A program made the translations under genes and the position numbers. From assembly GCF_008831285.2 (NCBI RefSeq), contig NC_045139.1:12808704-12872703 (forward strand): DNA of 64,000 nucleotides, given 5' to 3'. Source of the stretch: Nymphaea colorata. Its lineage: Eukaryota > Streptophyta > Magnoliopsida > Nymphaeales > Nymphaeaceae. Below, piece by piece: positions 1 to 55,390 of the stretch (positions are counted from its first letter, which is position 1; each line of letters opens with the position of its first letter). The notes under the pieces were generated by a model that saw only the letters and a list, made by a program, of their open reading frames with translations, made no database searches and was not told the DNA's origin.

Positions 1-716
1 CCCAATTTTTTCTATAGCTGAAGATAAAAAGTCAATTATAAATTCTGCATTTTTAGGATCTTTTTATTCATGAGTCGCCTTTCAAAATATGACACCTGTT
101 GGGCAGCTCACTAGTAAGTTTATGTATGATACACTCTTAATCATGTCTTTTCAAATAGCACACATAATTGTACATCCACACTGTGCCCATGCTTTCTTCA
201 TTTCATCAACATATGATAGAACATCTTTCTTTGGTTCATCTAGTAGTTTTTTCCTTGTTATTTCACTACTTGAGAGAATATATCCTAAGCTAAAGTTTGT
301 AGTTTCTGCAATAAAATTTTTGAAATCCATTGATTGAAGCAAGTTGAAAGGTATGTTGTTCATTACAATGGCTTTAAGTAGGAGCTTATCAGCAAATAGC
401 CAGGTAATAGACCTATGCTCGCTGGTTTGGAGACAAGCACATAGTTTCATAGCAAAAAAGCTAAGGGCATCATAAACTGTTGTATTAAAACTGTCGTTAT
501 TTATCCTATGGAAACAATTTTTTAGCATCAAAATTTTAACTTTTAACTTGAGCTGCTTCCCACTCTCGGTAGGAGGAGCATAGATATCAAACCAATTGAC
601 CGATAGAAACTCACAAGGAAGAAGGAATTCATCAAGAGCAAAGGTGGGGAAAAGTGACATACCATGGTAGAAATCCAAAAGGCATGCATCAATCCAAGTA
701 TCCAAGTGTGACCTTC

Positions 717-718
<2 letters not shown>
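1..718 (-). pseudogene. hAT-family transposase fragment, N-terminal/middle part
   Basis: Read on the minus strand, one frame encodes a protein related to plant hAT transposases of the DUF659 type. The clearest part (about 410 down to 150) has NNIPFNLLQS, then SSSEITRKKLLDEPKKDV and CGCTIM; these match the family pattern of a 'GIPFN' segment, a long helix with 'LL' and a 'GCTIMSDGW' strand entering the RNase H-like catalytic fold. The expected tryptophan-aspartate region after CTIM is disrupted. Beyond about 150 the reading passes into other frames and the fragment runs off the window. The 5' part ends in a (TA)n tract at 719-762. A better preserved inverted copy lies at 53813-55390 but lacks the counterpart of about 410-718. 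hAT identity is well supported; no activity is expected. Confidence 0.75.
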
Positions 719-763
<45 letters not shown>

Positions 764-800
764 CCTCTGAAACATATACATTGGTGAATCATCTCTCTCT

Positions 801-858
<58 letters not shown>

Positions 859-900
859 AGAGAGAGAGATGACTCACCAATGTTATATATATATATATAT
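719..900. repeat. Compound (TA)n / (GA)n microsatellite
   Basis: Pure TA runs occupy about 720-762, 804-856 and 884-900, separated by short unique pieces containing CTCTCTCT or GAGAGAGAG and the phrase gattcaccaatg or its complement. The same phrases recur many times in the mirrored right-arm locus (52900-53810). Open frames encoding YIYIYI strings here come from the repeat and are not genes. Confidence 0.95.
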
Positions 901-3390: not shown

Positions 3391-3515
3391 CTGTGGTGAC
3401 TTTAGAAATAGATTGTCGATTTGGTCCGGTATGGGCATACCAATGTTGTCGCAAATGGAGCCTCTACAGAAGCGACACTGGAATGGGTTGGAACGCTTTT
3501 CTGCAAAAGCAATCT
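3391..3515 (-). other. Exon-like block, left copy
   Basis: On the minus strand a pyrimidine-rich tract ending in tttctag precedes this block and a consensus donor (cacag|gtgagc) follows it. The 125-bp block is open in one frame; it contains NPFQCRFCRGSICDNIGMP near its middle. Its inverted partner at 46441-46564 has the same acceptor and donor positions but is one base shorter, so the two copies cannot use the same frame throughout. I do not recognise the protein. It may be a captured exon or an exon of a dead gene carried in the duplication. Confidence 0.35.
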
Positions 3516-3976
3516 CTAGAAAAGGGAAAACACAAGTTAGAGGAAGAATATCAAATGCAAAGGTAGAAAATCATTGGAGGAAGAAGAAAAAGGATGAAGA
3601 GGAACTTGAACTTATCGTCTACAGCGATATCGTCAAGGCCATAAAAAAACGCCATTTCAATGGTGTCGGGTGTGCATTGTGTACTTCAACATTAACGGCG
3701 CGGTTCCACAAGTGCCACATAAAATCTACCTCTATGGCACTGTCTGGCTGACGCCATAAAGGCTCCTTCTACAATGGCGTTCTAACATTGCTGAGCCACT
3801 AAACGCAACTTATTTAGCTGTGGTGTTCTCCTTTCTTTGAGTCTTGTTTTCTTTAGATTATTTCACTTCTCTAGTTATCAAACAGGCTCTACAATATGAT
3901 TTGGGAGAGAGAGAGAGAGGAGAGGAGAGGGGGGACAAGAACCAGTCCACTTAATTTCATAATGTCACTTAAGATC
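3516..3976. other. Inner flank of copia-1, with GA-rich tract
   Basis: Bases 3516-3560 and about 3770-3890 match the right arm in reverse complement. The 200 bases between (about 3565-3765) have no counterpart there. A purine tract of GA repeats lies at about 3902-3932. No gene seen. AGATC at 3972-3976 is the 5' target-site copy of copia-1. Confidence 0.6.
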
Positions 3977-17570: not shown

Positions 17571-18191
17571 TGAAGCACCAAGTCTCTATGATATTTATTA
17601 AGATAGCGTACTAAAGAAGCCTGATGATGTACATAAGCACACAGAAAGAGCTTACTACAAGCATCACAAAAGCCAGATTGATCTTACAGGTTTGCTGCTT
17701 TTGATTTCTTTTTTGTGCGTTTAGATTAACAACCTGGCTCTTGGAGTTTTTCAGCGGAAGACGCCTACAACCTTGTTTGTTTCCTCACTAAAGTCACCAA
17801 CAGAGCTCCAAGTCGTGCACACGAATGGCAACTAGCAGCAGCAACTAAAGAGAGGAAGAAGAAGAAGAAGAAGAGAAATTGAAACTGAAATTGAAGCAAA
17901 GAGATTAGTTGGGTTTGCTTCTATGACGCTCAAGCAAGGGTAATTTGAAAATTCATCACTAAATCGTGTAGTGCTGGGTTTATATGACCAGCCACATAGG
18001 TTTTCCCTTATGTCAGCCTGTGGTTAGGGCCAGTGAGATATTTCAAGAAAAAAGACAATGTAACACCAAAGTTTGTTTTTAATGAAAAATCTTTAGTTTG
18101 AAAAATAGTTAGCACAGTCTATCTCGTAACTGAGAGTGGGCCTCTCACAGTTACGAGAGGAAGGGATAGGGCCCATGGCCACTATCCAACA
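17571..18191 (-). mobile_element. Solo LTR of a copia-3 relative
   Basis: On the minus strand this starts TGTTGGATAGTGGCCATGGG at 18191, nearly the start of the copia-3 LTR, and shares with it the phrase GGGAAAACCTA...GGCTGG just before a TATA box (CATATAAA, 17979-17986). It ends GGTGCTTCA at 17571, with AATAAA (17594-17599) 23 bases before the end. It is flanked on both sides by CTATC (17566-17570 and 18192-18196), a 5-bp target duplication. No internal region or second LTR is present, so it is a recombined solo LTR of 621 bp. It sits just upstream of LINE coding sequence. Confidence 0.8.
18123..18157. promoter_or_regulatory. Palindromic TAACTG pair in solo-LTR U3
   Basis: CTCGTAACTGAGAG (18123-18136) and CTCTCACAGTTACGAG (18142-18157) form an inverted repeat upstream of the TATA box. 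Each arm contains TAACTG, the core bound by several plant R2R3-MYB factors. The copia-3 LTR has a shorter palindrome with the same core at the same place (34265-34285). A regulatory role is inferred. Confidence 0.55.
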
Positions 18192-24453: not shown

Positions 24454-24695
24454 TATCATTGGTGTTTGATATAACGTATATGCCATAGTTGAATCTAGGC
24501 TAACCTCATGGAAGGCTTGATATTTGTTGATTGATAGCAGGATTACTTTGATAAGGCATGTTCTCTCTGCTCAGGAATGCTTTAGTTGCTATTTTTGGAA
24601 CGGCACCGAGAGCAACAACAAGAAACATCTATTGTCATGGAGCACAACCTGACACTCATCAACGGCCATTATCAGTAGGGCATGCAGCAGGGTGG
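24454..24695 (+). repeat. 242-bp direct repeat, first copy
   Basis: It begins tatcattggtgtttgat and ends gcagcagggtgg. It matches 25505-25746 with a single difference (tgaatctagg against tgaatccagg), so this duplication is much younger than the LINE that contains it. Confidence 0.97.
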
Positions 24696-25504: not shown

Positions 25505-25746
25505 TATCATTGGTGTTTGATATAACGTATATGCCATAGTTGAATCCAGGCTAACCTCATGGAAGGCTTGATATTTGTTGATTGATAGCAGGATTACTTT
25601 GATAAGGCATGTTCTCTCTGCTCAGGAATGCTTTAGTTGCTATTTTTGGAACGGCACCGAGAGCAACAACAAGAAACATCTATTGTCATGGAGCACAACC
25701 TGACACTCATCAACGGCCATTATCAGTAGGGCATGCAGCAGGGTGG
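25505..25746 (+). repeat. 242-bp direct repeat, second copy
   Basis: Near-identical to 24454-24695 at an offset of 1051 bases. LINE sequence continues directly after it (IGVLNLWLWN), so this copy, or the right part of it, is the original junction. Confidence 0.97.
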
Positions 25747-26897: not shown

Positions 26898-27090
26898 TTG
26901 GAGTTTGTCGCAAGAGGAGGGGGTAAATCGACTGAGGAAATTAAAGAGTAACAAGATGTCAGAATTTGTCGACGGAAAAAACAATAGGTCGCCGGAGAAG
27001 GGGATAAGTCCACTGAGGAAACTGAGGAGTAACAAGATGCCGGAAATTGTTGGCGGATAAAACGATAGGTCGCCGGAGAAGCACATGCAA
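26898..27090 (-). repeat. 81-bp tandem repeat, about 2.4 copies
   Basis: Units with gaggaaa...agtaacaagatg and ggtcgccggagaag repeat with an 81-bp period (gaggaa at 26934 and 27015), preceded by a partial copy. Read on the minus strand it lies downstream of a leader-like sequence (gaaaccctaaaaattgg near 27155-27175) and the period preserves frame, giving two 27-residue repeats. I do not recognise a protein; it may be a dead leader or a short gene fragment. Confidence 0.8.
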
Positions 27091-28112
27091 GATATGAGAG
27101 AAATGGAGAGAAAAGAGAGCCGGAAGAAAAAAGGCTCCACCCATTTCCAATTTTTAGGGTTTCAAAACCTATACTTTTCCTCAATTTCGAGAAACCAACA
27201 TTTTTTTTTAGTTTTTTTGCGTTTCAATTTTTTCAAAATAACGTTTTCCCTCTTTGATTTATACAAACATCAACGGCCATTATCAGATTCACGAATTTCG
27301 ATATTCAATATTTTTCTAAATTATAAGCTAACCAAACAAAAAACTTTTGTTGCGGCCATCACATTGGTAATTCGTGTAAAACTAATAAAATGAGCAATGG
27401 AGCTTAAGAATGATTCCACTAATAAATAAATGCCTCAGACCTTTTTAAAACATTTTTTTATTTAATTGCTTTTGACTTGTATATAAATATGAATTTGATT
27501 GGTTGAGACCTGAGAAGTAGGTAGTTGGAACATGAAGACTTTGCTGAAGTTTATCTGAATAACCTAAAGTATTAAGTACACATATGAATTTTACAATGAC
27601 CACAGCCAGCATTTGTATACAATTTAATACAAAGAGCTAGAGGGAACACACAGTGCAGTAATAAATACAACAAGTTTGAATATATTTCACGGACGCTTTG
27701 AAGAATACCACAAGCTAGAGAGGGACAAATAGTCCCTATTTACAGAGATGCAGCCATAAAACTGAAAGGAAAGAATGAAAACTACAATGAACCATAATCA
27801 TAAATATGGTCAAAAGGTTTTAATAGGTGAAGTTTTTCTTAGATAGTTTTTAGCAAAGCTGAAAATCTCAGAAAAAATTGGCAAAAAATTAGCAATTTTT
27901 TTAGGAAAAAAAACTTCAAAATTTGGAAAAACTAAAATAAACAAAAAATAACAATAAAACATAAAAGATAGTTGGATAAATTAATAAAATAACGTTTTAG
28001 TAGTGATAGAAATAAATAATTTAAGTTTTAAATTCTTAAAAATAAAAATAATGAGATCAACGGGCGAAAAAACTGTTGTGAGGGTACAATATATATATAT
28101 ATATGTTGTACC
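27091..28112. other. Non-coding flank left of copia-3
   Basis: AT-rich sequence without a recognised gene. Bases 27268-27286 repeat 19 bases of the 242-bp duplication (catcaacggccattatcag). A short (TA)n tract (28089-28104) followed by gttgtacc borders copia-3; the mirror image of this flank is found on the other side of the element. Confidence 0.6.
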
Positions 28113-28437
28113 TGTTGGATAGTGGCCATTGAGCCCTATCCGGATATTACTAGATTTTAATATAAAACTGTTCCTAAAAAATCTCCTAAAAAATCTTTCA
28201 AGGAACCGCAGCTAGGGTTTGGGGAAAACCTAAGGCTGGACAATATATACCTAGCAAGCTCTCCTGAATATGATTAGCTGTGAGCAGCCCCTTGGTTGAA
28301 AACCCCTAAAACTGGGTACTCCTTCCTTCTCTTCTTCTGGCTCTTGTTTTCCTATTCTTACACATGGGACGCTCGTTGGAGATCTTGCTGCATCCACAAA
28401 AGGCAGACTTCCGCTGCAAAGCACAACATATCCATCA
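28113..28437 (+). repeat. copia-3 5' LTR
   Basis: It starts TGTTGGATAGTGG, has a TATA-like tatata at about 28243-28249 and ends tccatca next to the primer site. Compared with the other two LTR copies it lacks about 18 bases (between ggatat and tactag, about 28147): half of the TAACTG palindrome. Confidence 0.93.
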
Positions 28438-28438
28438 A

Positions 28439-28450
28439 TGGTATCAGAGC
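28439..28450 (+). other. copia-3 primer binding site (tRNA-iMet)
   Basis: TGGTATCAGAGC, one base after the LTR end, complementary to plant initiator tRNA-Met. Confidence 0.95.
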
Positions 28451-29976
28451 ATTGGTTTATCGATCCCAAGTAAGCCCGTTCAGACTTCTGTGATGCCCTT
28501 GGTAAATGCCTAAGTATGTTTCATGCTGTGAATGCGTAAACATGCATCATGTTCCTCGAATCATGTTTCGTGAATGATGAAAGCATGCTAGATCAAAGGT
28601 TTAGAACTATGCTGCGTGGATGAAGCAAGTTAAGGCGTTCTGTTCGCAAATCAACATGCTTAGTGTTATTTCTGTGCATGTTATTCAAAAAGCATGACGA
28701 CTGCAAATCAATCCATAAAATTTCTGTGCCTGTTATTCTAGAATATGGTATTTCAGTTTATTTGTTCTCTGCTCCCTTTGAGATTTTCAGGTCTACGGCA
28801 CTATAGACTAGAAACTCTCCTTTATCAGACAACGCTGCCAATTTCAGACAGCATTGTCGGCTTCACAGAGCAGAGAACCTAAAAAGAACGGAAGGGAAAA
28901 CATATACCTTGTTTGAGTTTCCTTTTTTTGAAAACCCTCTGTTAACAGATGAGAAATCCTCCGTGATCAGTGTGATTTGCTTCGTCCCTGTTGCCTTGGT
29001 GCCGCTCAAGCTTTAAAACTGAGCGACGAAAATTTTTTCAAAAGGGGCAGAACGGGTTAGGGCTTGTGGTTCTTGACATTCTCACATCTTTCATCTCTAG
29101 AAACCCATTTTTTTTGTGTAAAAACTCGTCTCCTCTGCTTCTGCCCTCTCTGCCGACGAGCAGCAATCGCACGATTGTCTGCAACCGCTCTCTCCTTGTG
29201 CTGGTGGCAGAGAGGTGATTTTGGATGGAAGTACTGGCAGACTTTCCTCTCTGCCAGTTCACCCTTATCTCAACGAAAGCTAGAGGCAGAGAGAGAGGAA
29301 GACGTTATTGTAGCCTCTGGGTCTGCTGGAGGTAGGAGGTAGTCTTCCTCACGGAGGCAGCACAGAAAAAGCGAGCGAAAAAGGGGCGTCTGAAGACGTG
29401 GTCCGTCGAGGGCGTGAAGGCGTGAGAAACCCAAACGGAGAAGCAGCTCTCTCTTCTTTGTTTTTGATCATGAAAGAACGGTGGAAGCTCCACCGTTGGT
29501 CGCACGAGAAGAAAAGAGGCGCTCTCGTGAGGAGAGAGACGACGAAAGAGAAAATGAGAGAAAACGGGTGAAAAAGGGGTTTTTATAGTCAAAAGTTGAA
29601 AATTACAAAAACAGTCCATGATCTATGATCTATTTCCAAAAAGGGTGTTACATTTCTCAGAAATTAAAGCCGCAACATTTTTGCTAAAAAGTTTTTCAAA
29701 AAGAGGCTCGCGAAAGTGTTTTTCGTAAGAAACCGAGAACTTCATGATAAATTACTTCTGGGTACCTGCAGAGTTATTATAAATTCCTAAAAAGTGAGTT
29801 CCGAAATTTTTTTTCTCATTGGAAGACTGCGTCTTTATGCAAAATACATACAGCACCCTCTAGCCGGTCTTACATATTATGTTAGAATATTGTGAAATCT
29901 CTTGATGTGATATTCATTATAATATGATTCGCCTTTCTTAATTGTTCCTTTCTTGTCATGGGAAATTAATTTAGAA
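28451..29976 (+). other. copia-3 long untranslated leader
   Basis: About 1.5 kb without a gag-like reading. The middle part (28980-29560) is purine-rich and GC-richer than its neighbourhood. A perfect 10-bp inverted repeat, GGCAGAGAGG (29206-29215) and CCTCTCTGCC (29246-29255), could form a stem with a 30-base loop in the RNA; leaders of LTR elements carry dimerisation and packaging structures, but that role here is inference. Frames on either strand in this stretch are short. Confidence 0.6.
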
Positions 29977-30894
29977 ATGACTTCAAGAGTGGGAGCTTCT
30001 GAATTAGCTAAGACTGAAAAACTGAATGGGACAAATTTCCATACATGGAAGCGTAGGATAATGTTGGCCTTGACTTTGGAAAGACTCATTTATGTGATCA
30101 ACGAGCCTTTTCCTACTTTAGGAGAAAAACCCACAGATGAAGAGAAAAAGGCATATGAGTCATTTACTTCTGACGATCTAATGGCTAAAACTATCATGTT
30201 AGCCATCATGAAAGATGATCAAATTAGAGTCTTTAAGGATTATCCAACTGCCAAGGATATGTTTGGTATTATTGCTTCAAAATACAACACCATGACTGCT
30301 ATGCACATTCAGTTACTGCAAGAACAGTACAATTCCTATAGAATGAAAGAGTCAGACAATGTAATAGACCATGTTAATAAGATGTTGGTCATGGCTAAAG
30401 ATTTAGCCATTGTGGGGAATGTCATATCTGACAATATGCAGATAAGCACAATTCTGAACAGCCTACCTCCTTCTTGGGATATGACAGTTACTGCTTTGAG
30501 TGTTCAATTTGATACTCTTACTTTAGAAAAGCTTCCTATATAGTTAGTTCTACAGCAACAACGTCTGACCAAGAGAAATAGAGCAGAGTTGATGACAGTC
30601 CAGGAAAAACCTGCTAGTAGTCATGTGCCTATAAAACTAAAACAATTTAAAAATCGAAACGATGGCAAGTTCAAGGGCAATTATGTAGGTACTAAGAAAT
30701 CTCAAGGAACTGTAGTGAAATGCGACAGATGCGGGAAGCCTGGACATATAAAGAAGAATTGCAGGACAAAATTCTCGAGTAAGAAAGACAACAATGGTCA
30801 GGGCAACTACAACAGAAGGAAGCCTCAATGGGACTCTGACAGAGAAGTCATCTTTGTCGTGTCAGAATGTCTGTTTGCAGATGTAGATTTAACT
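29977..30894 (+). pseudogene. copia-3 gag with CCHC knuckle, one stop
   Basis: The first ATG of the frame is at 29977 (MTSRVGASELAKTEKLNG). The gag core is clear: KLNGTNFHTWKRRIMLAL, then the UBN2-type region (LLQEQYNSYRMKESDN, NSLPPSWD). A TAG at 30541-30543 interrupts it. The frame continues to the nucleocapsid knuckle CDRCGKPGHIKKNC (about 30721-30762), with perfect C-X2-C-X4-H-X4-C spacing, flanked by basic residues. Gag would assemble the virus-like particle and bind RNA. Everything is in frame with pol, so the element encodes one polyprotein as is usual for copia. Confidence 0.93.
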
Positions 30895-32358
30895 GGATGG
30901 TGGGTCGATTCGGGAGCTACTCGTCACATTGCAAAGACGAAAGAATGAGTGATCTACATGGAAAATCTGAGTCCGGGAACCCACAAGGTCTATATGGGAA
31001 ACAACTCTTATTGTGATGTCATGGGTGATGTCATGGGAATTGGGGCATATCGTCTAAATGTTGAGGGTACAAGTGTTGTACTTAACGAGGTTTTGTATGT
31101 CCCCTCCATGAGGAGGAATCTAGTGTCTGTTCCCGCACTAACTGGGAAAGGTTTTGAAGTACGTTTTATTCCAGGAAAAGTAACAGTGGGAAAACATGGA
31201 AGGTTCATGTTTGGTAGAAAATTTGTAAAAGAACATGGTATGTTCAAACTGAATGACATAAATGAAGCTTCAAGTTCTGCTTATTTCGATTGTGCAATGA
31301 GTGTGAATGTAAACTTATGGCATGAAAGATTAAGCCATATAAGCATAAAAAAGATGCAGACTCTAGCACAACAAGGTTTAATACCTGACATAAATATAAA
31401 TGATTTTGCGAAATGCGAGTCATGTGTATACGGAAAAATGACAAGAAAACCATTTCCGTCTGAAGTAATTCGAGCCACTGAATTATTAGAGACAATTCAT
31501 ACTAATATCTGTGGACCTTTCAGGATCCAAACTCATAATGGCAAATTATATTTCATAACATTTATTGACGACTTCTCAATATTTGGTTACATATACTTAA
31601 TCAGATATAAATCTGAAGCACTTGAGAAATTCAAGGAATACAAATCTGAAGTCGAGAGACAACTTGGAAGGAATATCAAAATCATAAGGTCTGATCGAGG
31701 AGGAGAATACACTTCTAGTGAATCCCTCGAATACTGTAAAAACCTTGGAATTAATAGGCAAAAGACAATGCCTAGGACACCACAACAAAATGGTGTGGCT
31801 GAGAGGTGTAACAGAACCCTCTTGAACATGGTGAGATCCATGTTGGCAGGAGCACAATTAGCAAAAGTTTTTTGGGGAGAAGCTGTGTTAACGGCTATGT
31901 ATACAATAAACCGAGTGCCCTGCAAAGCAGTTCCAACCACTCCTTATGAAAGATGGACTGGTGTAAAACCAGATCTGAGATATTTAAGGAGATGGGGATC
32001 TGTAGCACACGTGAAAATTTTAGATCCAAAACTGGATAAACTAGATAATATATCAGTGAGATGTATATTTATTGGATACCCAAAAGGATCCAAGGGCTAC
32101 AGATTATATCCTTCATCTATGAGACTTATAGAAAGCAGAGATGTAGAGTTCATAGAAGAACTCAATAATAAAGATTATGATCCAGTGGAATATCAAAATG
32201 ATACACTGGATGATCTGATTTATTCAGATGAACAGTCTGGTAATGAACCGACTGGAGGTCAGTCTGGTAATGAACCGACTGGAGGTCAGTTTGGCAATGA
32301 ACCAACTGAGCAAGAATCGCCTGAGGAACAGTCAGGAAATGATCCGACTGAAGATTAG
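30895..32358 (+). pseudogene. copia-3 protease and integrase
   Basis: Protease: WWVDSGATRHI at about 30897-30930, with a TGA at 30946-30948 shortly after. Integrase: zinc segment LWHERLSHIS ... CESCVYGK (about 31316-31435); catalytic core with HTNICGPF at the first acidic position, IIRSDRGGEYTS with the second Asp and QQNGVAERCNRTL with the glutamate. The first position is normally HTD, so one of the three catalytic acids is changed to Asn. The C-terminal part includes FIGYPKGSKGYR, then a run of repeated SGNEPTGGQ-type units (about 32230-32350) that form a variable linker. A TAG at 32356-32358 ends this open stretch. Confidence 0.93.
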
Positions 32359-34062
32359 TTAGGCAATGAACCGATTGATATGAATATTTCATCATCTCAG
32401 ACGTTATCAGGTCAAAAAAGACCTAGAGCTCCTCCTTCATATTTAAATGATTATTATGTATATCTGGCAGATGAGCTATGCTATTTAGCAGATATTGATG
32501 AAATGTCTGACAACCTGACATATGATGAAGCAGTTAGCTCGCATGAATCGTCAGATTGGGTGAATGCTATGGATGAAGAAATTGAATCCATAGAAAAGAA
32601 TAAAGTTTGGGAATTAGTAGATCTTCCTAATGACAGAAAACCCATTGGATGTAAATGGGTACTAAAGAAGAAGTATAAAGCTGACGGATCAGTTGAAAAA
32701 TTCAAAGCCAAACTAGTGGCGAAAGGTTTTTCCCAAAAGAAAGGAATTGATTATTCAGAGACCTATTCGCCGGTTGCAAAGTTTGCATCAATCAGAATAA
32801 TTTTGGCTATCGCGGCATTCTATGACTTGGATATTTGTTAGATGGATGTGAAGACTGCTTTTCTTATTGGTGAGTTGAAAGAAACTATATATATGACTCA
32901 ACCGCAAGGATATGTCATCAAGAAAAAAGAAGACAAAGTGTACAAGTTGAATAAATTGTTGTATAGACTGAAACAGTCTCCAAGACAGTGGTATTTTGCT
33001 TTTCACAAAGCAATTACAAAACTTGGGTTTGTAGCAAACCAACTAGACCACTATGTGTACGTTTGGAAAAGTGGGAGTCTTTTCTATATTCTATCATTAT
33101 ATGTTGATGACATATTACTAACAGGAAATGATAACGACATGATATACAAAACGAAGACTTGGCTAAACAAAAACTTTGAAATGAAGGACTTGGGTGAAGC
33201 ATCCTATATATTAGGAATAAAAATCACTCGAGATAGAAACTCAAGAATCCTGAGTTTAAGCCAGGAATGGTATATTGATTATATCTTGAAGAAATTTCGT
33301 ATGTTAGACTGCAAACCAATTGAGACTCCTATAGCTAAATGAGCAAACTTAAGCAAGAGTGATTGTCCCAGTGAAGGACAACAAAAATTAAATGTTTCAT
33401 ATGCACAAGCAGTTGGCAGTCTGATGTATTTAATGCTTTGTACCAGACCAGACATAAGCTTTCCCATCGGTCTGGTAAGTCGTTATCAAAGTAATCCTGA
33501 ATGGCCTCATTTGCAAACAGTCAAAAGAATTTTTCGGTATATTAAAGGAACAAAAAGACTGAAATTGTTTAATCAAGCAGATGAGCTAACTTTAGTTGGC
33601 TATTCCGATGCAGATTTTGCAGGCTGCAAAGATGATAGTAAATCCACTTCAGGGTATGTTTTTCTCTTTGGAGGTGGGGCGATAGCTTGGTCCTGTAAAA
33701 AACAGGGATGTGTTGCTCAGCACACACAGGAAGCAAAGTATATTGCTTGTAATGTTGCAACTACCTTTGCTGTCTGGATAAACCGGTTCTTGAAAGAATT
33801 GAAATTAAACCTTGATTGTGAACTTGTTCAACTGTACTGTGATAATCAGGCAGCTATATCTCTTATGAAGAATGGAACTCTTAGTTCAAAAAGTAAACAT
33901 ATAATGGTGAAATACCATTATGTTCATTAAATGATCGAGAAAAATGAAATCTCGGTTGATTACTTGCCTACCAATGATATGGTAGTTGATCCTTTAACCA
34001 ATGGAATATATGAAGACTTGTTTTCAAAACATGTAGCCTATATGGGGCTAAGATATATTTGA
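32359..34062 (+). pseudogene. copia-3 reverse transcriptase and RNase H
   Basis: Same frame as gag. RT: KVWELVDLPNDRKPIGCKW, SPVAKFASIRIILA, MDVKTAFLIGEL (a TAG at 32839-32841 stands just before it), LYRLKQSPRQWY and the catalytic LYVDDILLTGND at about 33097-33130. A TGA at 33340-33342 follows PIETPIAK. RNase H: YSDADFAGCKDDSKSTSGY, CVAQHTQEAKYIA and YCDNQAAISL. A TAA at 33928-33930 cuts the last 44 residues, after which the frame runs to its natural stop at 34060-34062 (AYMGLRYI). No frameshift anywhere. At 32839 and 32356 the family usually has Gln (CAG), which a single C-to-T change turns into TAG. Confidence 0.93.
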
Positions 34063-34218
34063 AAGGTTGTGAAGGAAAAACCATTGAATGGAAAACCTCG
34101 CTGTAAACCTTGGAAAAGGTTTAGGTTACGTTGGATAAGCCAATTATAGAAAACCACGTAACAAATTGAATATAAAAAACCCACATATAGTGGAAGTAAA
34201 CTGGTGGTCTCATGGCCA

Positions 34219-34520
34219 AGTGGGAGATGTTGGATAGTGGCCATTGAGCCCTATCCGGATATTTAGTAACTGCAAAGCAGTTACTAGATTTTAATATAAA
34301 ACTGTTCCTAAAAAATCTACTAGAAAATCTCCCAAGGAACCGCAGATAGGGTTTGGGAAAAACCTAAGGGGCTGGACAATATATACCTAGCAAGCTCTCT
34401 TGAATATGATTAGCCGTGAGCAGCCCCTTGGAAGAAAACCCCTAAAACTGAGTACTCCTTCCTTCTCTTCTTCTGGCTCTTGTTTTCCTGTTCTTACATA
34501 GGGGACGCTCGCTCGAGATC
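34219..34520 (+). repeat. copia-3 polypurine tract and truncated 3' LTR
   Basis: AAGTGGGAGA precedes the LTR start at 34228. This LTR copy runs 293 bases and stops at ctcgagatc, about 45 bases before the position where the 5' LTR ends. It keeps the complete palindrome AGTAACTGC-AAA-GCAGTTACT (34265-34285). Confidence 0.93.
34265..34285. promoter_or_regulatory. Palindromic TAACTG pair in copia-3 U3
   Basis: Perfect 9-bp arms AGTAACTGC and GCAGTTACT around AAA. Each arm contains the TAACTG core of plant MYB sites. The inverted LTR copy keeps it with one change (34777-34797); the diverged solo LTR has a longer version (18123-18157); the 5' LTR has lost it. MYB binding is inferred from the core motif only. 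Confidence 0.55.
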
Positions 34521-34834
34521 TGCCTTTTGTGGATGCAGCAAGATCTCCAGCGAGCGTCCCCTGTGTAAGAACAGGAAAACAAGAGCCAAAAGAAGAAAAG
34601 GAAGGAGTACTCAGTTTTAGGGGTTTTCTTCCAAGAGGCTGCTCACGGCTAATCATATTCAAGAGAGCTTGCTAGGTATATATTGTCCAGCTCCTTAGGT
34701 TTTCCCCAAACCCTAGCTGCGGTTCCTTGGGAGATTTTCTAGGAGATTTTTTAGGAACAGTTTTAGATTAAAATCTAGTAACTGCTTTGCAGTTAATAGA
34801 TATCCGGATATGGCTCAATGACCACTATCCAACA
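34521..34834 (-). repeat. Inverted LTR copy fused to the copia-3 3' LTR
   Basis: Read on the minus strand it starts TGTTGGATAGTGG at 34834 and runs to CCACAAAAGGCA at 34521, 314 bases of the 325-bp LTR. It abuts the direct 3' LTR without spacer, giving a near-perfect palindrome of about 600 bases. It differs from both direct LTRs at several positions and resembles the 3' LTR more (it retains the TAACTG palindrome). Confidence 0.95.
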
Positions 34835-34837
34835 GGT

Positions 34838-34841
<4 letters not shown>

Positions 34842-34902
<61 letters not shown>
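34842..34902. repeat. (AT)n microsatellite right of copia-3
   Basis: An uninterrupted AT run following GGTACAAC, the mirror of the (TA)n-GTTGTACC left flank. Confidence 0.97.
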
Positions 34903-34904
<2 letters not shown>

Positions 34905-36126
34905 AGAGATGTTTATTTTTTATTATTAAAGAATATTGTTTAAGTAAAAAGACACCAACTTAATGTATGTTTCACACCGAATCGGTCTTGAAGATCATAT
35001 CTATATGGTTGGATTGCAAACAAATTATTTTAATAATTAACTTTAATGGGTCTGGTTTCTGTCTTTTGCCCAAGGAGTCTAGACACACACACAAGCAACT
35101 GCATAACTAGCTTTGACCGCCACGGTTTCTTGAAATATCAGCTTGTTGTATAAGCCTTGAGAAACAGTGTCTAGATTTGGAATAACTGGATATGTTCCAC
35201 CAAAACAGAACAGAACAGCAAGACAGAAAGCTGCCAAGATTTGGAATAACAACTGGATATGTTCAGGAGAACACAACATCAACTGTCACAAGTCTGGACT
35301 TGGCAAGCATTCAGCTAGCCACTCAACATTTTATGGCCATCCAACCACTAGCGGGTTGTTGTGGTTCTTACCAACAGTTTTAACTGTCGCTAAAAACATG
35401 CTTTGCTGTGAAATCAGATATTGACTTAACCTCACTGTGAAATCAGATATTGACTTAACCTCACTAGACCCTATCCAACTGAACTTAGGTTTAGCATCAA
35501 CGAATTTCCCTTTTTTTTTTCTAAATTTTATATGCATTAGAACACATTAGAGAAATATGGCTTTGATGGGAGCTTAGGGTAATCAGATCCTAATCTTGCA
35601 GATTTGAACAACTAATCTAGGATCTACTAAAACCAATTCTAAATATAACTGAAACTCAACTTAAATGAACAGAAAAGACTAAGGTGCATATAGGTCGTTT
35701 GGCTTTCCTCTTCCTCCTCACCCACCCACAAGAAATAAAGGCTCTGATTTTCTTTTTCCAATAAGGTAGGAGCTTATTCCTCATATGTGAAGACCATAAA
35801 ATTTTTTATCCCGCCCCCCATTCTTCCCTGCAAAACTTTTTTCGTTTGGGTTGGGCCTGTCATAACTGAACCCAAATCCAAACCTCAACATCTACCTTTC
35901 TATAATGTGACCACATTTCTTTGAACATAATTTTAGTTTAGTCAAATGATCGCTAAGGTATATCTAATGTGAACGACAATATATTATTTTTCATGTACAA
36001 TATTCACTGTTTTCACAACTCATAAGAGGCATTCACTGGGATGTCATTTCACAGCATTCAATCACTTCCTTCTCATCTAAAGTATGAAGAACTCAGTAGT
36101 CAACAACACTCATTCACAGTGATGGT
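34903..36126. other. Non-coding stretch with two small tandem duplications
   Basis: No gene recognised. About 35170-35200 and 35229-35260 share agatttggaataac-tggatatgttc. A 30-base unit (tgtgaaatcagatattgact...) is duplicated at about 35404-35463. Confidence 0.55.
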
Positions 36127-46085: not shown

Positions 46086-46212
46086 GCTCTCTCTTTTTTC
46101 TTCTCTCTTTAACTCTCTCTCTCTATGCAACCGGGTTGCATGGCATGTTATAGCCACATACTCAATTCGATTCCTGGAGGGTGTTATCTTGATGGTATTG
46201 AAGAATAATGTT

Positions 46213-46217
46213 GATCT
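46213..46217 (-). other. Empty insertion site of copia-1
   Basis: A single AGATC on the minus strand, flanked by sequence that in the left arm lies immediately before (…cataatg/ctcttaattt) and after (aacattatt-tctcaatacca) copia-1. Confidence 0.85.
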
Positions 46218-46440
46218 TCAAATTAAGAGTACCATTATGAGACTAAGTAGACCAGTTTTTGTAATTAGAAAAGTGAAATCATCTATAAAAAACAAGACTC
46301 AAAGAACGGAGCACAACACACAATCAAGCAACACTACTAAATTAATTGCGCTTAGTGGCGCAGCAATGTTGGAGCACCATTGCGAAAGGACCCTTTCGCA
46401 TGTGATATTCTTCCTCTAATTTGTGTTTTCCCTTTCCTAG

Positions 46441-46564
46441 AGATTGCTTTTGCAGAAAAGGCTCCACCCGATTCCAGCATCGCTTCTGTAGAGGCTCCAT
46501 TTGCTACAACATTGGTATGCCCATACCCAACCAAATCGACAATCTATTTCTAAAGTCACCACAG
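46441..46564 (+). other. Exon-like block, right copy
   Basis: Acceptor ccctttcctag, 124 bases, donor cacag|gtaatc. It is the partner of 3391-3515 with the same splice-like borders but one base less near gctccacccgattcc, so the reading shifts. One frame contains IASVEAPFATTLVCPYPTK before a stop, another NIGMPIPNQIDNLFLKSPQ. Product unknown. Confidence 0.35.
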
Positions 46565-46910
46565 GTAATCATCATCATCATCTTCTTCTTCTTATCCTCC
46601 TCCTCTCAGATTCTCCTTTCTTCTCTGCTTCCTCTTTTTCCCACATTTCCCCTCTCTTCCATTGCAATGTATATCTCAATGCAACAGAGAGGGGGATGAC
46701 AGTGACACAGTTGAGTTAAGTACATTAGTTTTATATTCTTTCTGTGCATTGAGTCTTCTTTCACTGCAACAAGAAGACAATTGACTGTTGAGAGATTACT
46801 GGAAAAAATATTCTGAACTGACCTCCTAATCTTTTGGACTTGACCTTAGACTTGGTCTTTCTTATTGATTTGGTGAAGCAACAACAACCACAGCACCATG
46901 GAGAGTTGTA

Positions 46911-47110
46911 TGTCATCTGGGGGTTTCAGAGCTCTATAGTGGTTGGTGATTGAACAGAAACCCTGTTCCTACATAAACATATAGACAATGTGACCTGCAC
47001 CATGAAGGCCAGCAGTCGTATGTCATCTGGGGGTTTCAGAGCTCTATAGTGCTTGGTGATTGAACAGAAACCCTGTTCCTACATAAACATATAGCCAATG
47101 TGACCTGAAG
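46911..47110. repeat. 110-bp tandem duplication
   Basis: The unit tgtcatctgggggtttcaga...aatgtgacctg occurs at 46911 and again at 47021, nearly identical. The left arm has no second copy, so it arose after the arms separated. Confidence 0.9.
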
Positions 47111-47691
47111 CTTATCTGAGCAATTATACAAAGTTCAAAAAGTAGGTGTACCACTGAAAGAGCAGGTGGACTTCATCAATTTTATCGATTCAATGCCGAA
47201 TTAATCACCCATAGGTCTATCATTCGTCCATGTAATTGTTAAGAGCATGTTATAATTTCAAGCTCTGAAGCATCTAATTTGTTTACTAGCTTAACTTTTC
47301 AGATGTTTGGATGCAGATTCAAGATCCTAGTATTCTTTGTTCAGATTAGGTTATGATAGAATGTGGAGTGTTTAATGCATTCCACCCTTAGCCTGAGTTC
47401 CTTTTACCTTTCTCAGTCTAGCAACTTTGTTTCTTTTTTCCTAAAAGAAAAGTTGTTTAAAAATTTGATATGTGAGCCATGGTTTATATTGATATTTAAC
47501 TTGTTTTCTAGAATTAAGTTCAAATTTTGGGTGCTTGTTGGAGTCCATATACATATGTTTGAGTAGAGATGAAATTGGGTTAAAGTACTGGTGTACAAAT
47601 TGCTTGTCTGGGAGAGCACTAGACATAAGTTTATTCAAGGGAAAAATGACCTGATCTAGATCTAATTTTGGTTCCTAAACTGGCGACTAGT

Positions 47692-50600
47692 TGTTCGCAC
47701 CCCTCTCCTTTTTTAAGGAGGTCGAAATGCGAGTCAGTAAAATTCTTTTAAAATTGAGATTTTGAGAAAATTTTCAAGAGAAAGGGATCCGCTCGTCGGT
47801 ACGAGGTCCAATCATTCCTGCCGCCTTTAACAGAGATAATTAGACCAATGACTAAGGATCATTTGGATCATATACGAGTTATTGATGCAAATCCTATGTG
47901 CTTGTGCATTGAGGTTTTGGATTCAAGAACCGAAATTCATTTTTGAATAAATGAATTTGAATATTGGGGGGGTCTTCAAATTGGTTTAAAACCTTTGTTT
48001 TCGATTTGAAATACATAATTCTTGAGGATTTTGAAGATTTGGAATTGAGTTCTTCGTTGTGAACTCTAGGTGATGATGATCATCTTATGATCAAAATTGA
48101 TTTTGAACTCTTCTTTTGTCAAATCATGTGATTTGTAGAATTCATTCTTTTGAAAGAACATAAGTTCCAAATCGCTAGAAAGCATGTTGTTTTTCAAACG
48201 CACTTTGGCCAAAAGATTATAAATGCATTGCTTGTGTTTTCTTTTAAAGTTAAGTGATGTTTACAAATTCTCATTGCAATATGACTTGGTCACTTTTTGC
48301 AACTCAAATTTGAATCACTTAACGTCTTGAGAATGTGCATGTGGTGCTATTGATTTTGAGTGAAGGTGAATGCATGAAACGGGAAGGGAAACTATATGGA
48401 ACATTCATTCTTCTCTCTCTCATAATCCCTCAAGATTCATTCATATGAAACATACATTTTTCACTCTCTCGTAATCTCTCAAAGTCCATATTGCACGTCA
48501 TACAATCTATGCATGAAGATTGATTAAAATGTAGGACTTTCTGTATATGTGCTTATTATATGATTAAGCACATGAATTAGAGATGTAGTCCATAAGCTTG
48601 AGGCTTGACATAAAATTATCAAAATGATGAAAATATGTAAATGATGTCAAGTTCAATCTTTGAAATGGATGGGAGACGTGGATGACATCCACTTTTGTCT
48701 CAAAATAGCTAAAAATCAGACCTTGTGTTGATTTAGATAGCTGAAAATTGTAGACATTGATTCCAATGAAGGACTTGTTTCTTAGATAGAAATAAGAAGT
48801 CTTTCAAATATATTCAAATTCCAGATTTGATAGTAATGAGATCGTCAACTCTTTTGGATGATTCTAAGATAGTTAGTATTTCAAATATGTAAACTTTGAC
48901 ATTCTTAAACCAATTCCTATGAAACATGGTCTGATTTCAACAACATACATACATCTTACGTATGAATTTGCTGAAATTAAGTAAAAATGAAATGAAAATG
49001 ATTCATAACCTTGCACTAGGAAAATCAATAAAAATGACCCATTTCCTTAAAAACCGGTTTGGAAACATGTTCCAACCTGATTTTAAGAGAGGAATGTAAT
49101 TTTTTACAAGAAATCAGATACATATATGTACATATATAACAATGTATACATATACGTACCTTACTTTTCAAAATGAAATTTTATCAAGGAACCGCATAAT
49201 TCATGAATCATGAGGATTCTTGGTGGGGTTCTTTCATGTAGGAAGATTGAAAACTTGTTTCACATCTCCCCTACTACCCTTGATCAATTAAATTGAAAGA
49301 CATAAACCAAAATGACTGTAAATAAGAAAGAAAATAAAACAATGCTCAAGCTTATTCATCCATCATTTCGCCATGCAAGGGTGGATCACATTCATAAGAA
49401 CGTATCTATCCCTTATAGGCATTTTCATCATACATGATGCAGCAAAATCACTCTCTCACCGTGGGATTCTCTCATGGTAGGGAGTTCAAAATGGTATTAT
49501 GTTGATTCCTTTGAAAGGGACGTGACCTTGGGGCCCATTTTAAAATTTGATATGTGGGTTCATATTTAAGAAAAACCGACATATGCTTGCATTATGCATT
49601 AGCATGTACATTGAAGCGTAGGTTTCCCTTAGCTGTACATCATTCCCAGCCATAAGCAAATGAAAATAAACCCTCCCACCAATTGCTGAAATTAAAATAA
49701 ATCAACAATAAGCTAAAGTAGAAGAGAAGTAAGTTAAAATCACCTACCTTGCGGTCGGTCTTGATGTTTGTCCTTCGTCTTCACTTGTTTTCTAAATCGA
49801 GCAATCCTAAACAAGAACTCAACCGTGGATTCAATCTTAGCAAAGCTAGAATAAGAAATAGCTTGCTTGCTGGAATTTGGAATGAAAAATGAGAGAGCTT
49901 CTCTCCACGAAAATCCTAAGTAAGGGTTCACTTAAGCACCCTAACTTAGCAAACTCGATAGAAAGAATGAAGAAGAAAATGAGAGAAAGGGGAGAAGAAA
50001 GCTTGGGCGAATCTTCTTGCTCCTCCTCGGCTTCTCTCTCCAAGCTCCTTGGCTGCAACACTTGATAGAATACTCCAAAAATTCTTCCTCCTCCTTGGTG
50101 GCCAATGGGAGGTTTATATAGAGGAGGAGGTGGGTTCAACCACCTTCTTAACTCACCTTGAGAACTTGCTTAAGACCTTGAGGTCTTGTGAAATGAGTTA
50201 AATAGGCTTTAAAGGCTCTAATTGATCATTTCTCAGCCCATTTCCACGAGCAAGGTGGGCTGGGCTAGGTTTGGTCAACATGGGTTCAGACCTAGGTGAC
50301 CAACTTGACCAAAATTTTAGACGAAAATGCCCTTGCATAGGGTTTTGCCCTTATTTTGTACTATTTATTTATTTTTTGTTTGAAATCAAGCTTGTAAGGT
50401 TAAAACCTAGTTACTAAGCTCCAAATGCCATTGAATTATGATAATTTAATTTAAATTTTAATAAAATTTGAAAATTTTATCAAATTTGGTTCGAAAAGGG
50501 TATTTTCGTTCAAAACTTGATTGAAAATGGATTTCAACTGAATCAAACTTTTACTTGAGAAATTCAATTTAAATTTGGTATTTGATTCATGAATTTGACA

Positions 50601-51443
50601 AATTCAAATGTTTATTTGCCTTTCATAAACCAATTTAGGCTTTTTAATCTCAATTTGACTGTAGAAGGGCAAAATTGTTCAAATTGATCAATTTCGACCA
50701 ATTAACCAAAGTCAAAGCTCATTTGTGAGTAGTTTGACTTTGTTTGAGGTAATTTGATAAACTTGGGTCAAGAAAGCTCTTAATTGAGCTAAATTGTACT
50801 TTGACTGAATTTAGTCAAAGTGGGTTTGGTTCGGTCAAAGTCTATTTTCGTCCATTAATTGGATCATGAGACAGACTTACGTTTTGACTGTGTTGAGTCC
50901 GTGCTGACCGAACCTAGCTGGAATTGGCACCACTTTTGGGTGCACCCGGGTCAAACCTACTTGGATTAAGTAGGTTAGGTGAATTTGACCAGTCTAGTAA
51001 TTGCTACCTTGAAAATGATTTTTTTTTTTAAGGAGGACCTGGTTAAAGAAGAGAGAGAGGCATAAATGTCTCTCTTTTCCTAGGTTTCTCCTTTATGTCT
51101 TCTTGAAAATGACTTTTCTTCAATATTTATTTATTTATTATTTTTTTAAATGGAGGGGGGCGTGGCCCCTGGGGGGCTCTTGACCACACGGGCTTGGTGG
51201 GGCCCACACGTGGGTCCCGTATTCTAGACTCAATTCTTGGGTCTAAGTCAAAATTTAAAATTTGCAATTGTATTTTGAACTCGTAATCCTGCATGGGGAT
51301 TCGTGTCCCGGGTTAAATTCACGATTTGAATCTAATTGTTCTTTAGATTCGAAATTGGCTTTGAAATTGCAAATTTTCACAATTCTTTTGTGAAATTTTC
51401 ATATTGCTTCAATTTTGATGTGGAAAAATTTAGGGTGTTAACA
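47692..51443 (-). mobile_element. 3.75-kb solo LTR, probably Ty3/gypsy type
   Basis: Flanked by CTAGT on both sides (47687-47691 and 51444-51448), with the unoccupied site (one CTAGT) preserved in the left arm near 2305-2330. On the minus strand it starts TGTTAACACCCTAAATTTTT and ends GGGGTGCGAACA, ends I associate with the large LTRs of plant Ty3-type elements. A TATA box (TATATAAA, minus, 50113-50120) precedes a leader-like stretch. No polyprotein motif and no second LTR are present, so it is read as a solo LTR in minus orientation. The exact borders are firm; the family assignment is less so. Confidence 0.85.
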
Positions 51444-52550
51444 CTAGTCATCTAGTCTCAGTCAGCCAACTAGTCCTTGGCTGTAAGTAGCACATGGCTT
51501 CACTGCTATTGTTTATGTAGTGATCACATGGAAGATTGAGCATGAAGGGTGCATTTATGAGCACTTCTGACACTCGAACTTACCATCAACACTCCAACAA
51601 CAACCTTCATTAGCCAAGCAGCAAAATAACCAGCAAAACCAAAGTTAACATTTGGCTTCATACAGAAGCAGGCTGTGTTCTTGAAGAGAGTTCACAAACT
51701 TGATAAATATTCAGTTGCTTGGTTGTATTATTTTGGCCTTTATAAGACTTTTTGGTGATGCCAAGTAGGTTCGATTCCATCTATTAAATTTTTTGGTCTT
51801 TTCCTCCTTTTCACATATGGCAACTTTTGTTCCATTTGTTTTCTTGAGTGAATAGGTTTGAGTTGGTCATATGCACTGTAAATTATACTGTTTAGCACCA
51901 TGTGCTTATGTATCTCATCTTTGGATTGACTATGGCTCTACTTTTAGCAGTTTCTGGTCTAAAATAGATCAACATTTGCTAAGCTTGGTTTGTCCCAGCT
52001 CTTGATCTCTCTTTGGATCATGAAACATGGAACCCATATTTCTCATACATGCACGGGATCAACTAATTTTCAGCAATCAAGGCTTTCTGTAGGATGTTTG
52101 AGAAATTCCAAAAAAGAGTATTCCAGGAAATTTTGCTGTAACATGCTTAAGTTGATGCAACTACAGTACAAACCTGATTGCTGCACTGATGCAGAAACTT
52201 TGGGCCTTGTTGATCTTAAAGATATTATGATTTGTCGGCTTTTGCCAAGAAGAAAAATAATAGAAATGGGATGGAGACCTCTGTACTCTTCACAACCTCT
52301 TTTACAATCCAAGGCCACAAACTAGCAATACTTTATATTCAAAAGATGCAACCCAACAAGAAGTGCGATACATGTGTACGAAAAACGCTTTATTGAAATT
52401 TTAACGATACTACAGTATTTCGAGGGAAAATGTGCAAAATAACCAGAAAGAGAAATGTTTCATATACATTGAATTCTTGAGAAGAAAGAACAGAACACCA
52501 CATGTGAGCTTCCTAAAATAGTTTGCCTGGTTTGGAAACTGTTGGAATGG

Positions 52551-53690
<1,140 letters not shown>

Positions 53691-53812
53691 AAGAGAGAGA
53701 GATGATTCACCAATGTATATGTTTCATAGGCTATATACATATATATATATATACAAGGAGGGAGAGATGATTCACCAATGTATATGTTTCATAGGCTATA
53801 TATGTATATATA

Positions 53813-55390
53813 TGAGGTAGAATGGCTATTTGCTGATAAGCTCCTACTTAAGGATATTGTAATGAACAACTTACCTTCCAACTTGCTTCAACCAATGAAT
53901 TTCAAGAATTTGCTGGAGCTACAAACTTTGGCTTAGGATATATTCTATCAAGCAGTGAAACAACAAGGAAAAAAATACTAGATGGACCAAAAAAAGATGT
54001 TCTATCAAATGTTGATGAAATGAAGAAAGCATGGACCTTTGTGGATGCACAATTTGTCTCATGTTTGGAAAGATATGATTAAGAGTGGATCCTACATAAA
54101 TTTATTGGTGAGCTGCCCAACAGGTGTCATATTCTGGAAAACCAATCATGCAAAAAAAGGTCCTAAAAATGCAGAATTTGTAATTAACTTTTTGTCTTTA
54201 GCTATAGAAGAAACTGAGGCAAAAAATGTCATACAAGTTGTTACACACAATGGAAGCAATTATAGAAAAGTGAAACATATTCTTGAAGGAAAAAGTCCAA
54301 AAGTTTTTGCTACATATTGTGTTGCGATTGAATTGACTTAATGCATGAAGACATTGATAGTTTAGAAGACGTGGCAACTATCATGCGCAAAGCAAGCAGA
54401 TTGTCAAGTTCATATATAATAAGAAACTAGCTTTAGTATAATGAGAACTTGTACAAAGGTAGAGGAGTTGAGGAGGTCTGGTGTGACTAGATTTGCCTTT
54501 CAATTTATTTGTTTGGATTCTTTCTTAAAACAAAAAAAGAGCCTTTGTTTTATGGTTGTCTCCAGTGAATGGAGACGTGTAGAAAACACTGTAAAGAATG
54601 ACGCAAAAGAACTTACAAGTCTCATTCAAAATGAAGATTTTTTGAAAAATGAAAAAGAAATAATCAGTCTTGTTGAACCATTAGTAAGAGTACTGAAGAT
54701 TATCTAAATCTTCTAAAATTAAAGATGGATGAAGAAGTTTAGGAAGGCTTGAACTTGGTAAAAAAAAAAAAAGAAACTTCTTGCTCATGAGGATTATGCA
54801 AAAATGGATCTTGAATTGATCAAACATCACAACAAAGATCCTACATTATCATATGTAAGTGTCTCACTTTTACCATCTACTTCAAATTTCTCATCCATGT
54901 AAGTGTCTCACTTTTGATAAATGTTTGATGATTAGTTAAATATTTCAATTACAAATTTACAATTGTATAATTTTGAATTTTTTTGGTTGTTAACTTTATC
55001 ATATGTAAGGCATTTGGTGGGAGATATTTGGATCTTTTGTTCCTATGGTTCAAATTGTAGCAATCAAAATTTTAAGTCAGCGATGTAGTAAACTAGCTTT
55101 TGAAAGAAATTGGAATGCATTTGAAGTTGCTAATAAGAAGAAGAGAAATAATCTTTTACAGTCTAGATTAACTGATGTGGCATTCATTAGAATGAATATG
55201 CCTTGCAAAGCATGACTGCAGAAATAAAAAAGATAAATGCAAATCCATCTATATTGACCATGTGAATTAATTTCCAGGAGAAGAAAATGCAGACGCTGGG
55301 TTGTCTTCTAATTTAGAAGAAGAATAAGATACTGAAGAGTATAGACGCAATAGAACAAATGAAAAATATGACTATTACTTCATGAGATGA
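53813..55390 (+). pseudogene. hAT-family transposase, middle to C-terminal part
   Basis: Segments in order: WLFADKLLLKDIVMNN-like start (about 53825); SSSETTRKK; SYINLLVSCPTGVIFWK and NVIQVVTHNGSNYRK (about 54085-54260), matching the DUF659-type core of plant hAT transposases ('N..VNCP.G..F', 'VVTDNGSN'); GVTRFAFQFICLDS and SEWRR (54480-54590), the following helical insertion; EPLVRVLKI (about 54680); and at 55010-55215 the dimerisation segment WEIFGSFVPMVQIVAIKIL, SQRCSKLAFERNWNAFE, KKKRNNLL. hAT transposases cut and paste elements with 8-bp target duplications. The catalytic Asp of 'VVTDNGS' is His here (VVTHNGS). Stops and frameshifts separate the segments; dead copy. Inverted partner of 1-410. 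Confidence 0.88.

Follow-up and report, generated by a model that had tools for sequence, protein, structure and literature searches.

A copia retrotransposon of Nymphaea colorata with an inverted terminal long terminal repeat and a mirrored flank, perhaps left by one-sided integration and inverted copying

Introduction

How does a retrotransposon come to end in a palindrome of two long terminal repeats (LTRs), with the DNA beside it mirrored on the opposite side? The question is raised by a stretch of 64,000 nucleotides (nt) from the Nymphaea colorata contig NC_045139.1 (positions 12,808,704 to 12,872,703 of assembly GCF_008831285.2; hereafter the window), in which a dead-looking Ty1/copia retrotransposon occupies positions 28113-34834. 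Besides its two direct LTRs, the element carries a third, inverted LTR at its right end, and an inverted 25-nt piece of the right flank stands at its left end. An earlier note on this DNA had offered two routes to such a structure: integration of a complementary DNA (cDNA) that had already acquired an inverted LTR, or inverted copying of the left flank and LTR to the right side. Comparison with uninserted copies of the site suggests a different history, with a normal insertion at one end of the element and a faulty repair at the other. Coordinates below are those of the window, and features lie on its plus strand unless marked otherwise.

Results

The left LTR (L5; 28113-28437) is 325 nt long, starts with TGTTGGATA and ends with TATCCATCA, and has 19-nt and 2-nt deletions of its own. 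The 3' LTR (L3; 34228-34521) is cut within its unique 5' region (U5) at ..gagaTCT. The inverted LTR (Linv; 34519-34834, minus strand) is cut in U5 at ..aaaaggcAGA and ends exactly at the terminus CCAACA of the unique 3' region (U3). The tail-to-tail joining of these two LTRs into a palindrome of about 600 bases had been described correctly in the earlier note, coordinates included, and was confirmed by the inverted-repeat arms: 34228-34521 and 34541-34834, 294 nt each and 95% complementary, with a 19-nt spacer and a total length of 607 nt. The arms differ at 14 of the 294 sites, 8 of these differences being transitions. The place of the junction stood, and its description was corrected. Comparison of the two LTRs revealed a TCT microhomology common to both (34519-34521, assigned to neither strand), at which Linv begins, and the arms end at unequal U5 points, which on the 325-nt scale of the left LTR are positions 273 and 295. 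Folded as single-stranded DNA, 34222-34842 gave -329 kcal/mol, compared with -68 +/- 4.6 kcal/mol for 20 shuffled sequences (z-score -57).

Outside the LTRs, the flanks mirror one another over 24 nt without a gap (GGTACAAC followed by (AT)8), which bears out the mirroring reported earlier. Mirroring of at least 24 nt occurred in 6 of 400,000 random position pairs, and when the left flank was fixed at the LTR edge, no second place in the window mirrored it over at least 8 nt. The 5-mer GGTAC is present on both sides of the element (28083-28087 and 34835-34839), but the left copy is 25 nt distant from the LTR. On the left, the window reads gtgagGGTAC, followed by the 25-nt piece AATATATATATATATATGTTGTACC (28088-28112, minus strand), which is the reverse-complemented start of the right flank, ends in TGTTGTACC and continues unbroken into L5. 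On the right, it reads GGTACAACAT(AT)n..TTGAGAGATG, with the flank AACAT(AT)n..TGAGAG, read as the template of the mirror, at 34840-34908.

The host genome (407.8 Mb) was searched with the left flank as query, so paralogues of the right side only may be missing. Four long paralogues of the left flank were found, at C2:12786384 (81% identity over query positions 5-491), C5:12145900, C5:12158174 and C2:12735922. Three of the four span the site and contain neither the insert, nor the palindrome, nor the 25-nt piece with its terminal TGTTGTACC; the other (L057) has lost the stretch. The clearest empty site, L058, reads gtaagGGTACAACATAC(AT)n..AGAGATG and, around the site, tgttgtaagGGTACAACATACATATAT..TTTTAAGAGATG (in a shorter reading, gtaagGGTACAACATACATATAT..TTTTAAGAGATG). 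The corresponding sequence is gtaagGGTACACACACACATACATATATATTAAGGGATG in L056 and gtaagGGTATAATATATATCTGTTC in L055. GGTAC occupies its ancestral place after ...gtgag in both L058 and L056, with one base different in L055, and the right-hand copy in the window likewise matches the paralogous site. The insertion point is read as ...gtgag^GGTAC^AACAT(AT)n.

With these empty sites, GGTAC reads as an ordinary 5-bp target-site duplication, in place of the GTAC duplication with one extra base at each end proposed before, and the right side is the original site, in ancestral order from GGTAC on. The right end accordingly resembles an ordinary integrase product, with the U3 terminus CCAACA beside GGTAC and the flank in the order of L058. 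That order places GGTACAACAT on the right side and leaves TGTTGTACC with no ancestral source on the left. The left 25 nt repeat the right flank in inverted form, so copying ran from right to left. The switch after GGTACAA can be read in two ways between which the sequence cannot tell, either as a 3-nt CAA/TTG pairing or as a turn inside the TA array. The C of AACAT is missing after GGTACAA in the left insert, as expected if the piece is the far end of the copied flank, and its absence makes a CAA/TTG switch appear slightly better than a TA-array switch.

Identity to the empty paralogues was 81-82% for the left flank (long matches, L055 and L056) and 86-90% for the right flank (127 columns beside the site). 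The flanks diverge more from their paralogues than the LTRs do from one another (94-95% identical), so the insertion is younger than the duplications that produced the paralogues. The flanking segment as a whole (27023-28096 and 34910-35681) has further copies about 50 and about 100 kb upstream and at two C5 positions, and 35 more places match part of the left flank at 69-79%.

For the family, 38 LTR regions of about 1 kb each were fetched (15 pairs and 8 single LTRs) from a genome search that scored 40 of 195 candidates. Over 273 columns common to the three LTRs of the element, single differences numbered 11 in L5, 5 in L3 and 6 in Linv. A longer alignment was rooted by majority on six LTRs of three other elements, the closest 6 of the 38; part of U5 aligns poorly with these. 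Its 23 informative columns comprised 10 private derived changes in L5, 5 in L3 and 6 in Linv, one tied column and one derived column common to L5 and L3, and none was resolved as shared by Linv with either of the others. In particular, no private change common to Linv and L5 but not L3 was seen in the rooted alignment, and Linv retains the 19 nt deleted in L5. Pairwise Kimura two-parameter (K80) distances among the three LTRs were 0.061, 0.066 and 0.049, which, with rates of 1.3e-8 and 7e-9 per site per year, give ages of about 2 to 5 million years.

A history in which Linv was copied from L5 halfway through the life of the insertion was 5.7 log units less likely than a star. Grouping of L3 with Linv was 1.3 log units better than the star, a gain that might stem from gene conversion between the arms of the palindrome, but for this pair the rooted alignment resolved no derived change in common. 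These counts speak against late copying of the left LTR and against Linv as an unrelated element. The three LTRs are about equally old, and the distances together with the rooted counts indicate that the palindrome is about the age of the insertion and formed at or near that event.

The family has at least 23 further loci in the genome (the 15 pairs and 8 single LTRs), and may be larger because 40 of the 195 candidates were scored. An exact 5-bp target duplication was found in 12 of the 15 pairs and none in the other 3, exact 5-mers having been tested rather than 4- or 6-bp repeats. A survey of plant LTR elements gives 5-bp duplications for 87.2% and 4-bp duplications for 11.6% (PMC6911290). 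Duplications of 5 bp being usual both in the family and in that survey, a reading of GTAC plus an extra base is not needed. The earlier note had called for a search for other copies with inverted terminal LTRs; none of the 38 fetched regions had LTR matches in both orientations. The same survey quotes ANGTT-TSD-AACNT, where TSD is the target-site duplication, as the Tos17 target (PMC6911290). A Tos17-like preference was considered and rejected: both halves were present at none of the 12 family sites, with a full left half at one (L020/L019) and a full right half at another (L011/L012).

Three further observations concern the family. One member, at C5:10321567-10328170 (L020 in reverse complement, and L019), sits at ATGTTGTACC (..atatcATGTTGTACC) with the target duplication GTACC, and when the window site is read from its inverted side, the two sites agree in register over 11 nt. 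This coincidence is unexplained; a run of 11 nt was equalled in 15 of 2000 random sets of 13 sites, and no other clear relation between the flanks was seen. A small hairpin near the LTR start (AGTAACTGCAAAGCAGTTACT, alignment columns 35-53) carries varying deletions in the left LTR, L010, L012 and L014, and is a recurrent deletion spot. An exact search of viral contigs with one 23-letter stretch of the LTR start gave no match.

The remainder of the element has the composition of a Ty1/copia retrotransposon. A primer binding site read from the sequence (TGGTATCAGAGC, 28439-28450), which we take to be that for initiator-Met tRNA, follows the left LTR, and an identical 12-mer comes after the LTR in 13 of the 38 family regions. 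Pfam matches identified a gag fragment (Retrotran_gag_2, 29953-30543, E 4.3e-24), an integrase region (gag_pre-integrs, rve and SH3_retrovirus, 30949-32358) and a reverse transcriptase (RVT_2, 32380-33342). The integrase lies upstream of the reverse transcriptase, and with the copia-type gag and reverse transcriptase this gives the Ty1/copia order, Retrotran_gag_2, rve, RVT_2; the direct LTRs, primer binding site and polypurine tract agree with this membership. Stops separate the open pieces, and the reverse transcriptase is broken by a stop into two, so that the element looks dead. No Pfam match was obtained at 33424-33927, where RNase H would be expected. The polypurine tract (AAGTGGGAGA, 34218-34227) lies directly 5' of the 3' LTR, and this 10-mer is identical in 12 of the 15 family pairs and differs by one base in the other 3.

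Elsewhere in the window, 18110-18191 (minus strand) starts like the LTR of this element (TGTTGGATAGTGGCCAT..GCCCTATCC) and then differs, and is probably the LTR start of a related family. Several stretches of 1-3900 match 46200-54200 in inverted order at 75-87%, perhaps as two copies of a DNA transposon, and a weak DUF659 match below the cutoff (151-789) falls within one of the left-edge stretches matching 46-54 kb. A direct repeat of 242 nt with 99.6% identity (24454-24695 and 25505-25746, about 1.05 kb from start to start) marks a young short element, possibly a terminal-repeat retrotransposon in miniature.

Discussion

The explanation that we favour, and hold to be about evenly balanced between right and wrong, is that integrase made the right end by a one-sided joining and that microhomology-primed inverted copying made the left end, with its CAA and TCT junctions. 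Integrase would have joined only one cDNA end, the U3 end, on the right (half-site integration). The free chromosomal 3' end on the left would have been extended through GGTACAA and would then have switched onto the displaced right-hand strand, either by CAA/TTG pairing or through the self-complementary TA array. Copying would have run backwards along that strand, first over the flank and then into the LTR, and so have yielded the inverted flank and the inverted LTR copy in one run. That run could have ended when microhomology at TCT joined it either to a cDNA end frayed in U5 or to a stub of an LTR. Such copying predicts a pre-insertion site that read ..gtgagGGTACAACAT(AT)n..AGAGATG and lacked TGTTGTACC..GGTACAACA. 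From the earlier interpretation this retains the gain of an inverted LTR, the unusual structure and the likely role of template switching or copying; insertion into a pre-existing palindrome with GTAC, and copying from left to right, found no support.

Several points weigh against one-sided joining followed by a single run of copying. To give the internal region its present orientation, a single-run model needs either a long copy of about 6 kb or one inversion afterwards by way of the oppositely oriented LTRs. At about 300 nt, the LTR portion of the inverted copy is longer than the yeast foldback insertions of one report, which reach about 150 bp (PMC11724301). The TA stretch differs in L055 (GGTATAATATATAT) and L056 (GGTACACACACA), which leaves L058 as the main basis for the precise letters before insertion. 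Finally, the derived base at column 68 is found in L5 and L3, whereas Linv keeps the family base c (20 of 20 readable among the 38 copies); one shared template would have given all three LTRs the same base. Column 68 thus hints, weakly, that Linv may have had another template. In a simulation of the star, one or more parallel changes arose with a probability of 0.21, which makes this a weak counterpoint.

A two-step history is possible, although we regard it as doubtful. Within the virus-like particle, synthesis of the plus strand would have stalled in U5 of the 3' LTR and, at TCT, have changed its template to a plus-strand LTR, perhaps that of a sister cDNA or of plus-strand strong-stop DNA that had been displaced. 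It would have continued to the U3 terminus of that LTR and so have made the inverted LTR. A cDNA with U3 at both ends would then have integrated with the 5-bp GGTAC duplication, and its left end would have been mended when the right flank was copied back into Linv and the copy annealed to the left LTR, which it matched. This sequence of events accounts for the exact U3 terminus of Linv, for its family base at column 68 and for the near-equal age of all LTRs, and plant LTR elements of proposed template-switch origin are on record (PMC1950507). However, reverse transcription and integration of the left end would each have had to go wrong in a rare way, independently of each other, and an inverted neighbour accompanies none of the 38 family LTR regions.

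Integration of a cDNA with an inverted terminal LTR into a palindrome already present at the site (GTTGTACAAC or ATATGTTGTACAACATAT), with a 4-bp GTAC duplication and an extra base at each end, is very improbable. Duplications of 4 bp do make up 11.6% of the plant LTR elements surveyed, and the flanks here resemble the Tos17 target as quoted in the same survey (PMC6911290). Against this, the palindrome is absent from all three uninserted paralogues that span the site, which also bears on the question posed earlier of whether the mirrored sequence existed beforehand; 12 of the 15 family pairs have 5-bp duplications, and none of those 12 sites combines an ANGTT-like left with an AACNT-like right half. 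The extra C/G would also remain unexplained, because the base before the 3' LTR is A.

An assembly artefact, whether from a snap-back read or a misjoin, is very improbable. Long palindromes are a known trouble spot for assembly. The arms, however, differ at 14 of 294 sites, no better-matching copy was found among the 40 of 195 candidates scored in the genome, and the duplication, microhomologies and empty sites give one coherent history. We give still less credence to inverted copying of the left LTR and flank to the right after a normal insertion. It predicts the mirror of flank plus LTR that is observed, but the ancestral sequence is on the right (GGTACAACAT..AGAGATG, as in L058) and not on the left, so that the mirror was copied the opposite way from that proposed earlier, and Linv has no resolved derived change in common with L5 and retains the 19 nt missing from it. 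Hardly credible is the fusion of two independent family insertions in opposite orientation by a deletion between their LTRs, which fits tail-to-tail LTRs sharing a short microhomology but would make the mirrored flanks at both ends a coincidence, with Linv about as close to L5 and to L3 as these are to each other.

The locus resembles several known systems and coincides with none. Like Ty1/copia elements, it has gag, integrase before reverse transcriptase, TG..CA LTRs, a primer binding site, a polypurine tract and what reads as a 5-bp target duplication; unlike them, it has a third LTR, inverted and fused tail to tail with the 3' LTR, and a 25-nt inverted flank at its left end. The complex insertions of Triticeae attributed to template switching likewise combine three LTRs with a flanking 5-bp duplication, which suggests one insertion episode (Sabot and Schulman 2007, PMC1950507). 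The locus shares with that class an extra LTR of the same age inside a single target duplication. In the Triticeae insertions the third LTR is internal, shared by two elements and in the same orientation, lying between two internal regions, whereas here it is terminal, inverted and truncated (PMC1950507). DIRS-type elements have inverted LTRs at their outer ends but use a tyrosine recombinase (PMC5633606); the present element has a DDE integrase, by its rve domain, and two direct LTRs besides the inverted one.

Foldback insertions at double-strand breaks in yeast are mostly 5-34 bp long and reach about 150 bp, with 0-5 bp of junction microhomology (PMC11724301). An inverted copy of adjacent sequence with junction microhomology is also found at this locus (CAA or the TA array on the left, TCT at the LTR junction), and its 25-nt flank piece falls within the usual size range. 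It differs in being located at a retrotransposon end and in continuing into an LTR of about 300 nt. The yeast class is further defined by dependence on Pol delta and end joining, whereas the present case is known from its sequence alone. Among the titles listed in a literature search, none dealt with an insertion whose flank is mirrored in this way, which does not in itself show absence in print.

Tail-to-tail LTRs with the potential to form a hairpin RNA also recall the LTR hairpins considered as a possible cause of silencing of the copia element EVD in Arabidopsis, in a paper that cites Mu killer (PMC11624286); for the present locus the comparison is drawn from its DNA letters only. According to that paper, a close-range search for LTR hairpins in EVD lines found none, and one antisense nested insertion had its LTRs about 2 kb apart (PMC11624286).

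The best reading of the locus is a new form of aberrant insertion or foldback repair. The uninserted paralogues permit the integrase-made end, the copied strand and the turning point to be read base by base. The signature can be sought in other genomes: a duplication set apart from the LTR by the opposite flank in inverted copy, and an inverted LTR at one end of the element. To our knowledge, products of retrotransposon integration in which joining of the second end failed are rarely seen in genomes. The locus may also be a natural LTR-hairpin locus. The fullest form of the proposal, which we consider unlikely, is that it is a fossil of half-site integration, with one end made by integrase and the other by polymerase turn-back, in which a single event created an LTR palindrome whose hairpin RNA could silence its own family. 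If that is true, this copia element would offer a natural parallel to Mu killer.

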